From Bacillota bacterium (lineage in GTDB: Bacteria > Bacillota_I > Bacilli_A > Izemoplasmatales > Hujiaoplasmataceae): a DNA stretch of 64,000 nt. Positions 32,764 to 44,632 of the stretch are shown here, in pieces (position 1 is the stretch's first letter; each line of letters begins with the position of its first letter). The notes beneath the pieces are model-generated. The model searched no databases. It saw only the letters and a program-made list of their open reading frames with translations, and had not been told where the DNA came from. The DNA lies in contig JAHIRM010000013.1 in NCBI GenBank assembly GCA_018818595.1, forward strand, positions 124,001 through 188,000, in the 5' to 3' direction. A program made the translations under genes and the position numbers.

Positions 32764-32850
32764 GTTAATGATACTGAATTATTATTTTTTAAGATTTAAG
32801 AATATTATTTTTTAATTTTATGATAAAATATAGAGTAAGAGGTGGTTTCA

Positions 32851-33288
32851 TTGGTTTATTATAGCTTCTTTTTGATAGGAATCAATATAACAATTCATAA
32901 CATATCTTTTGCTATAGTAGGAAGTTCATTTTCCGATTTTTTACTTCAAAATTTAGGATGGTGTATCTTACTTATCTTTTTGCTTTTTGCAATAATCTTT
33001 TACATTATTTTTAGAAAAAAGAAAAATAGCAAGGTTGATATTATGAGTAATGATAATATCGAAGCAATTCTTAACTGTTTTGGAACCTTAGAGAACATCG
33101 TTTCTTGCTCACTTGAAGGATCGAGATTAAAAGTACTGACAAAAGATATCAGCAAAGTGGATTTAGTATCCATAAAAGCGTTAAAAGCTCAAGGTATTTT
33201 TGTTTCAGGCAACCAAGTAAAATTGATATTTTCTTTTGATGTACATCCGCTTGTTGATTATATAATAAATCAAAAAAAGGAGAAATGA
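32851..33288 (+). CDS. Membrane-anchored PTS EIIB-like protein without phosphocysteine
   Basis: The 145-residue protein has two N-terminal hydrophobic segments (about 3-22 and 33-55), then a basic stretch (FRKKKNSK). A domain of about 75 residues follows, with the fold pattern of glucose-family EIIB: NIEAILNCFGTLENIVSC, then GSRLKVLTKDISKVDLVSIK and GNQVKLIFS. Aligning SRLKV with the usual TRLRV puts Glu at the position of the phosphorylated Cys, so phosphotransfer looks lost. The TTG start at 32851 has AGAGGTGG upstream. It sits 3 nt before the HPr gene. A regulatory or HPr-docking role is inference. Confidence 0.7.
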   Translation: MVYYSFFLIGINITIHNISFAIVGSSFSDFLLQNLGWCILLIFLLFAIIFYIIFRKKKNSKVDIMSNDNIEAILNCFGTLENIVSCSLEGSRLKVLTKDISKVDLVSIKALKAQGIFVSGNQVKLIFSFDVHPLVDYIINQKKEK

Positions 33289-33291
33289 ACA

Positions 33292-33558
33292 ATGATTGAA
33301 TCTAAATTTAAAATTGGGTACCCTCTTGGACTTCACGCAAGACCTGCGACAATGTTGGTAAGTAAAGCCAATAGCTTTCAAGCCGAAATGACAATTGAAT
33401 TTAATGAAAAAAGAGTAAATTTAAAATCAATCATGGGAGTACTGTCATTAAGTGTACCTCAAAACAAAACGTTTATCATTACATTTAATGGTAGAGATGA
33501 AGAAGAAGCTTCTCAAGCAATCAATCGAATTATTAACGAAATCAATTTAATGAAATAA
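33292..33558 (+). CDS. ptsH: Phosphocarrier protein HPr
   Basis: An 88-residue HPr. The active His lies in GLHARPATMLV (His at ~16), and the regulatory Ser site is NLKSIMGVLSL (Ser at ~47). Both are intact, so it should serve PTS transport and HPr-kinase/CcpA-type control. AAGGAG precedes the ATG. No enzyme I is adjacent; instead it is paired with a membrane EIIB-like protein. Some HPr-like proteins with this gene context are not general PTS carriers. Confidence 0.93.
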   Translation: MIESKFKIGYPLGLHARPATMLVSKANSFQAEMTIEFNEKRVNLKSIMGVLSLSVPQNKTFIITFNGRDEEEASQAINRIINEINLMK

Positions 33559-33561
33559 ACG

Positions 33562-33591
33562 AAGGGCATCTGTAAAAGATACCCTTTTTTT
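33562..33591. terminator. Terminator downstream of ptsH (and facing trpS)
   Basis: An AAGGGCATCT/AGATACCCTT stem with one mismatch, a GTAAA loop and a U tract on the plus strand. Confidence 0.8.
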
Positions 33592-34591
33592 ATTTTCTTT
33601 TTCTACCAAGCCCAATTTTTTGTTTGCATTTTTCTAGCTTTCTAAAGGCAAATTGAGAAGCAACTTCTTTTCCTTTGTCTAATATTTCATCTACAATAGA
33701 AGAATTAATGATTTCAGTATATCGTTTTTGTAAAGGAATCAGTTCTTTTACAACTAAATCTGCTAAATCCTCTTTAAATTCTTTATAACCTAGATTTTTG
33801 TATTTTTTGACAATATCGTCAATTTCTAAACCTGTCAAAGAAGCATAAATATTCAATAAATTTGCAATACCCGTTTGATGAATTGGATCATATTTTACAA
33901 TCCCTAACGAATCCGTAACAGCGGATTTTATTTTTTTTACGATGACATTTTCATCATCAAATAAAGAAATATACCCTTTATCTGATTCATCTGATTTACT
34001 CATCTTTTTATCAGGATTTTGTAAATCCATAATTCTCGCACCAACTTTTGGAATTAAAGGAGTTGGCACGATAAAGAAATCTCCATATCGATTATTGAAA
34101 CGAGTGGCAATATCTCTTGTAAGTTCTAAATGTTGTTTTTGATCTTCTCCCACGGGGACATAATCAGCATCATATAATAAAATATCAGCTGCCATTAAGG
34201 ATGGATATGTAAACAACGATGCAGTAATTCCGCTTTCTTGTTTTTTGGATTTATCTTTAAATTGCGTCATTCTTTCTAATTCACCCATATAAGTAAAGCA
34301 TTGCAAAATATATCCAAGTTCAGCATGTTCTTTTACTTCAGATTGGATAAATAATATTGTTTTTTCTTTGCTTAAACCAGCAGCTAAATAGATAGCAATG
34401 ATGTCTTTTGTTCTTTTCCTCAGTTCTGAAGCGATTTGAGGAGTGGTAATAGCGTGCAAGTCTGCCACAAAAAAGTAAAACTCTGCATCGGGCATTTCCC
34501 TTTGCATTTTAACAAATACTTTAATTGCGCCCAAATAATTTCCTAAAGTCAATGTTCCTGTAGGTTGAATTCCTGATACGATTTTTTTCAT
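33590..34591 (-). CDS. trpS: Tryptophanyl-tRNA synthetase
   Basis: The 333-residue class I enzyme has the HIGH-type motif PTGTLTLGNYLG (10-21), the KMSKS motif KKMSKSDES (~203-211), and the Trp-pocket blocks FIQSEVKEHAELGYILQCFT and YVPVGEDQKQHLEL. It charges tRNA-Trp. The gene is preceded by a T-box leader whose specifier reads UGG, so expression responds to uncharged tRNA-Trp. It is monocistronic. Confidence 0.96.
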   Translation of the reverse strand: MKKIVSGIQPTGTLTLGNYLGAIKVFVKMQREMPDAEFYFFVADLHAITTPQIASELRKRTKDIIAIYLAAGLSKEKTILFIQSEVKEHAELGYILQCFTYMGELERMTQFKDKSKKQESGITASLFTYPSLMAADILLYDADYVPVGEDQKQHLELTRDIATRFNNRYGDFFIVPTPLIPKVGARIMDLQNPDKKMSKSDESDKGYISLFDDENVIVKKIKSAVTDSLGIVKYDPIHQTGIANLLNIYASLTGLEIDDIVKKYKNLGYKEFKEDLADLVVKELIPLQKRYTEIINSSIVDEILDKGKEVASQFAFRKLEKCKQKIGLGRKRK

Positions 34592-34611: not shown

Positions 34612-34804
34612 AATCGCCCTTAAATAAAGGACGATTTAACGCGGTACCACCTTTGTTCTAGTTTACACTAGCACTCATTCCTTTAACGCAGGATTACGGA
34701 TGGGATTAGCATCACTCACTGGTCCATTCATCCTATTTTCCTTGTTCTCACCTACCACAAGGTCTCTTGTTTTTTCCTAGGATTACTATTTCAGTTCATC
34801 GTTT
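34612..34804 (-). ncRNA. T-box leader of trpS
   Basis: The minus-strand leader contains the T-box core AAAGGTGGTACCGCG. It is followed by a terminator hairpin (AAATCGTCCTT / AAGGGCGATTT, then U tract, complement of about 34611-34636). A UGG triplet at the complement of 34724-34726 (GAAUGGACC context) lies where a stem I specifier is expected and matches tryptophan. Binding of uncharged tRNA would favour the antiterminator. Confidence 0.9.
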
Positions 34805-34810
34805 TGATAT

Positions 34811-44408: not shown

Positions 44409-44414
44409 ACCTTC

Positions 44415-44632
44415 AAATCGATGCGAAAGATAAGTAGAAATTTTATTTAAAATAAAGAGAGTTTAGGGTTGGTGAAACTAAACAATAAATAAAATTTTGA
44501 AGCTCCTTTCAAGAGGTGTTAAAAACACCCGTAACTCTCTGCGTTAAAGAGATAGAGTGCTAGTTTTCTAGAACAAAGGTGGTACCGCGATAAAATCGTC
44601 CTTTATATGTTAAGGATGATTTTCTTTTTTTG
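44415..44632 (+). ncRNA. T-box leader of alaS
   Basis: The T-box core AAAGGTGGTACCGCG (about 44575-44589) is followed by a terminator hairpin (44592-44623) and a U tract. A GCU triplet at 44502-44504 (GAAGCUCC context) is a plausible alanine specifier, matching the downstream gene. Confidence 0.9.

Follow-up and report, generated by a model that had tools for sequence, protein, structure and literature searches.

A membrane-anchored EIIB-like protein without phospho-Cys, encoded beside HPr and found across its bacterial class

The EB-HPr locus

The locus studied here raises the question of what an EIIB-like membrane protein does when its phosphorylation site carries no cysteine and an HPr gene follows it directly. 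The analysed stretch, hereafter the window, comprises 64,000 nucleotides (contig positions 124001-188000) of a 1.87-Mb draft genome that is 95% complete. We use the name EB for solo, membrane-anchored, Cys-less EIIB proteins, and anonymous labels for families, f1 being the family of the window and f3 a sister family. The features of the locus are the following:

32837-32845, + strand: ribosome site of EB, AAGAGGTGG, preceding the TTG start
32851..33288, + strand: EB, Cys-less EIIB-Glc-like membrane protein of 145 aa, TTG start and TGA stop
32953..33009, + strand: conserved membrane helix of EB (residues 35-53)
33049..33285, + strand: EIIB-fold domain of EB (residues 67-145), from the AlphaFold2 model and Foldseek matches
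33115..33117, + strand: Glu89 codon of EB, at the phospho-Cys position (Cys421 of E. coli IIBGlc) by alignment
33124..33126, + strand: Arg92 codon of EB, opposite Arg424 of IIBGlc in the alignment of solo proteins
33220..33222, + strand: Lys124 codon of EB, by alignment
33292..33558, + strand: HPr, 88 aa, with His15 (GLHARPA) and Ser46 (LKSIMG), PF00381 match
33562..33592, + strand: hairpin followed by a T-run, 3' of HPr, read from the sequence

Only 3 nt separate the EB stop codon from the HPr ATG, and the ribosome site of HPr (AAAGGAG, 33276-33282) lies within the 3' end of EB. The earlier note had described this HPr as having intact His and Ser sites, which proved correct: the protein matches PF00381 with 89.7 bits (cut-off 23) and contains both GLHARPA and NLKSIMG. 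The pair is flanked by the genes of inorganic pyrophosphatase and tryptophanyl-tRNA synthetase (trpS), both on the opposite strand. The hairpin and T-run, scored on the trpS strand only, read as a putative end common to EB-HPr and to the oppositely oriented trpS. A promoter scan found 8 promoters against a chance mean of 5.0 (sd 2.3), which is no clear excess. A read-through fusion of EB and HPr under code 4, with the TGA of EB read as Trp, was rejected, and code 11 was used because the main genes nearby keep open frames when TGA is not read as Trp. The window also contains two T-box leaders, one upstream of trpS (34624-34808, - strand) and the other at 44412-44606 (+ strand).

Relationship of EB to glucose-type EIIB

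Compared with E. coli IIBGlc, EB gave a phmmer E-value of 2e-6 in an alignment that is ungapped over 60-62 residues, and a profile of 44 EB relatives matched the same protein with E=2.2e-18. TIGR02002 was matched by 44/44 of these relatives and PF00367 by 28/44 (E<=0.01); EB alone remained below the cut-offs of PF00367 (16.5 bits vs 27) and TIGR00826 (17.1 vs 45.75). The AlphaFold2 model of EB (16 sequences) had a pLDDT of 85 overall, rising to 93-96 in most of the EIIB domain, in which it predicted a helix at residues 67-76, strands at 83-89, 92-97, 113-119 and 122-127, and further helices at 105-110 and 132-144. The best PDB match of this model in Foldseek was the EIIB structure 3bp3 (E=8e-7, TM 0.82 by target length), and 3bp3, 3bp8 and 1o2f, all of them EIIB, ranked among the top matches. 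Comparison with PHROGs gave nothing useful.

The EIIB pattern that the earlier note had read in EB is borne out by the ungapped IIBGlc alignment, the profile match and the predicted EIIB-like fold; the absence of such a fold, which it had named as counter-evidence, was not what structure prediction returned. By homologous sequence and modelled fold, EB appears to belong to the glucose/sucrose-type EIIBs (PF00367, TIGR00826, TIGR02002; IIBGlc, 1iba, 3bp3, 1o2f), with which it shares the fold, the ungapped match and the Asn-Ile and Arg424 positions. It differs from them in lacking the phospho-Cys and an EIIC, in having a membrane helix of its own, and in carrying Lys124 where they have Gln. A chance resemblance is ruled out by the E-values, the ungapped profile match and the fold, and a decaying glucose permease pseudogene by the class-wide spread, the intact frames and the conserved residues.

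The active-site position

The motif DACITRL of E. coli IIBGlc aligns over SLEGSRL of EB, and therefore Glu89 replaces Cys421, as had been claimed from the sequence. An upstream cysteine (in VSC) could have been the true active residue, and this was checked: Cys86 lies three residues off the active position, at a mostly hydrophobic alignment column, and was found in 1/44 sequences (alignment A5). It was thus ruled out as a misplaced active Cys.

To describe the family, solo proteins (under 260 aa, n=107) and EIIC-fused EIIBs (n=8) were compared in one alignment, the loci having been picked by match and frame length, blind to the residue. The active-site Cys was present in 0/107 solo proteins vs 8/8 EIIC-fused EIIBs. 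In its place the solo proteins had E (29), D (20), T (14), V (8), S (8), N (7), K (7), Q (6), I (4), L (2) or R (2). An acidic residue is consequently common among solo EB proteins, not general (49/107 overall; 27/31 in f1). The proposal that a negatively charged residue permanently mimics phosphocysteine may apply to the proteins with E or D and is not general in the family, in which T, V, S, N, K and Q also occur. The position of Arg424 is more uniform, with R in 72 and K in 30 solo proteins (102/107). At position 124, which we take to be Gln456 of IIBGlc, 76/107 solo proteins have Lys and 8/8 EIIC-fused EIIBs have Gln.

Membrane anchor

Two membrane helices had been proposed for EB. The helix at residues 35-53 is conserved, exactly one membrane helix being predicted in 40/44 relatives; the hydrophobic stretch before it (residues 6-24) is a borderline case, with a hydropathy of 1.72 and a model confidence of about 64, so that only one of the two helices is upheld. 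A Lys-rich stretch follows helix 35-53 and, by the positive-inside rule, the EIIB domain would lie on the cytoplasmic side. In two f10 loci (L156 and L157) four membrane helices are predicted for EB, not one, and it still adjoins HPr.

Distribution of EB and of the EB-HPr pair

Matches to EB were found in 63/101 relatives with a single-protein query and in 80/101 with a profile, and the profile matched 357/394 genomes of a sample of the class; some of the matches in each count are long frames in which EIIB is fused to EIIC. The best 150 of the 357 matches were all in short frames. A phylum-level search returned genomes of the same class only. Nine solo proteins of small TGA-code genomes (f17, f23, f28) also match the EB family profile. 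Solo, Cys-less EB is found across the class and is not a local oddity. Seven genomes of a sister family, f2 (G034, G036, G038, G040, G042, G044 and G046), gave no full-length match to EB and no match to HPr or enzyme I, and HPr kinase was never over the cut-off in them.

The coupling to HPr stated in the earlier note stands as gene organisation. HPr directly follows EB in 30/31 f1 loci, the exception (L024) stopping at a contig edge, in 24/26 f3 loci, and in 11/37 loci elsewhere in the class, that is, all or some of those of four more families (f10 2/2, f12 6/6, f16 1/2, f22 2/2). Two further pairs were identified in f10 (L039) and f12 (L045). Spacing is mostly from -4 to +15 nt, and 48 to 73 nt in f10. 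In all, the pair is conserved in 6/17 families looked at. Its neighbours differ: pyrophosphatase and trpS in f1 and f3, and queA in f12, f16 and f22, with tgt as well in f22. EB did not adjoin HPr in any locus of f5, f7, f9, f11, f13, f15, f18 and f20, and the same holds for all nine loci of f17, f23 and f28.

EB in genomes without HPr and the PTS of the host

HPr matches were absent from 170/394 genomes of the class and from 60 of the best 150 EB-bearing genomes (40 in f13, 9 in f18, 6 in f9, 2 in f7 and 1 each in f5, f16 and f3); these genomes are drafts and some of the absences may be gaps. In G109 (f16) the gene next after EB is a methyltransferase (cluster c3) which in f12 comes after HPr, and in G043 (L059) and G067 (L049) EB adjoins trpS with HPr missing between them. 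No match to HPr, enzyme I or HPr kinase was obtained in the latter two genomes. HPr as the sole partner of EB is ruled out by the presence of EB in genomes without any HPr, and because EB is kept there its main job would be independent of HPr.

The host genome encodes enzyme I together with an EII set of the ascorbate/galactitol type. Near its enzyme I gene there are a PRD regulator with EIIA, PTS_IIB, an EIIC-GAT permease and a second HPr (L036). No PF00367 EIIB or PF02378 EIIC match was found in this genome (95% complete), and therefore the genome offers EB no EIIC of matching type. A third HPr-like gene lies between pgk and tpi in the glycolytic cluster (L037:8323-8568), with GLHAELA replacing GLHARPA.

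His15 loss in EB-linked HPr

Among the EB-linked HPrs of f1, five have Gln15 (GLQARPA; G010, G018, G025, G029 and G032, two of which are single-contig genomes) and two have Asn15 (GLNARPA; G006 and G014), while the other 23 retain His15. The HPr tree requires two separate His15 changes in f1. All seven genomes without HPr His15 lack a match to the enzyme I N-domain and possess HPr kinase. Ser46 is retained in every EB-linked HPr of the f1 and f3 loci, L039 and L045, including those without His15. Since Ser46 and HPr kinase persist after enzyme I loss, HPr would here probably be a regulator and not a His-phosphate donor. The pattern of His loss is not universal, because three f3 genomes (G049, G063 and G064) gave no enzyme I match and yet retain His15, and in genus g6 of f1 His15 is likewise present where the enzyme I match examined comprises just an N-terminal half.

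A known HPr homologue of this kind is Crh, which has His15 replaced by Gln and Ser46 kept, according to PMC9631020. Judged by its sequence, the HPr of genus g11 (f1) looks Crh-like, with Gln15, Ser46 and an HPr kinase in the genome. It differs from Crh in being the sole HPr found in its genomes and in lying within the EB operon. The EB-HPr pair, with His15 lost twice and Ser46 and HPr kinase kept, offers a clean natural test of a non-phosphocarrier HPr.

Possible functions of EB

Our best explanation, which we regard as evenly poised between right and wrong, is that EB, an EIIB no longer capable of phosphotransfer, acts outside the PTS as a docking module at the membrane, in some lineages jointly with HPr. 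Sequence and model show an EIIB-Glc domain detached from EIIC, with one predicted membrane helix as its anchor, and deprived of its phospho-Cys family-wide; because of this loss EB should be unable to carry phosphate by EIIB chemistry. The protein appears to keep the fold and a former active face that, from the alignment, would be basic and Cys-less (Arg92, Lys124), and so EB would most likely dock a cytoplasmic partner at the membrane constitutively. Its job would be outside sugar phosphotransfer, because it is retained where no enzyme I, or no HPr, was detected. In the lineage of the window EB would be co-produced with HPr, which probably regulates the same process. A precedent for a membrane EIIB as docking site is E. 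coli IIBGlc, which sequesters Mlc at the membrane (PDB 3bp8). That EIIB, however, has catalytic activity, and docking there is governed by its phosphorylation, whereas EB would be dead in phosphotransfer. In the open-licence PMC literature we found no account of an EIIB that lacks the Cys and is paired with HPr, which is weak evidence of absence.

In the model drawn from the earlier note, the acidic residue would permanently mimic phosphocysteine and EB would serve HPr specifically, for docking or sensing at the membrane. The adjacency of both genes in six families and in more than one gene neighbourhood agrees with this, as does the E or D of most f1 proteins. However, fewer than half of all solo proteins are acidic at the site, EB stands apart from HPr in 11/17 families looked at, and the EB-bearing genomes without HPr (G043, G091 and G109 among them) are many. 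In the standard PTS pathway HPr is not known to contact EIIB directly. Dedication to HPr is consequently weakened, and we consider it unlikely.

Other candidates for the docked partner come from outside the PTS. MG_129 / MPN_268 of Mycoplasma is called an "orphan PTS EIIB", lacking both EIIC and EIIA as partners, in the excerpts of PMC13047044, a 2026 pooled-AlphaFold3 study which predicts that MG_129, like HPr, contacts the SRP receptor FtsY, and which contains one FtsY-MPN_268 crosslink. EB resembles MG_129 in being a solo membrane EIIB in a host without PF02378 EIIC, and the nine short solo proteins of small TGA-code genomes look like the same kind of protein, a kinship that we infer from the description given there. 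Cys loss and the HPr operon are features of EB that go unmentioned for MG_129 in those excerpts. EB might then be a membrane-side partner of FtsY, with HPr as a second FtsY ligand, and carbon state would be linked to membrane-protein targeting. That EB outlives the PTS would be expected of the partner of a universal protein, and the EB-HPr gene pair fits both proteins acting in one process, for which it would be independent support. Nevertheless, the published contact is a prediction, the ends of its sole crosslink are 33.4 A apart in the model, EB is tied to MG_129 by description, and neither ftsY nor ffh appeared next to EB among the named neighbours, most neighbour clusters being unannotated. 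We treat this reading as a concrete but unlikely candidate.

An action of EB on enzymes of central carbon metabolism at the membrane, with transketolase as an example, is highly improbable. EB is directly upstream of transketolase in 6/6 f5 and f18 loci (L152, L162, L163, L165, L175 and L188, one of them cut by a contig end), with gaps of -8 to 18 nt, and it adjoins pyruvate formate-lyase in several f15 loci; nevertheless, the link is limited to these families. That EB remains a phosphocarrier through another residue is hardly credible: E, D, T or S at the site could be phosphorylated in principle and Cys86 is close by, but the residue at the site varies across the family, Cys86 is present in only 1/44 aligned sequences, and EB persists where neither enzyme I nor HPr is detected.

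Returning to the docking module outside the PTS, its widest form would be that dead, membrane-anchored EIIBs left the PTS class-wide and became the docking part of a core membrane process, with FtsY as candidate, and that in many lineages HPr was recruited to feed in the metabolic state through Ser46, without involvement of phosphotransfer at His15. Taken as a whole, this is speculative and rather a long shot. EB itself is real, conserved and under-described, and its first published trace is in Mycoplasma. If the docking explanation is right, EB would be a pseudo-enzyme PTS domain that outlives the PTS itself, and its retention in very small genomes would point to an unnamed function in near-minimal cells.

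Finally, a lone N-terminal half of enzyme I (224 aa; L207:2796-3470 and L208:2971-3645) was observed in g6, an f1 genus in which HPr His15 is kept. It consists of the N-domain and the mobile domain, with no PEP-binding domain at the locus, and similar enzyme I frames of 225-270 aa occur in other f1 members.
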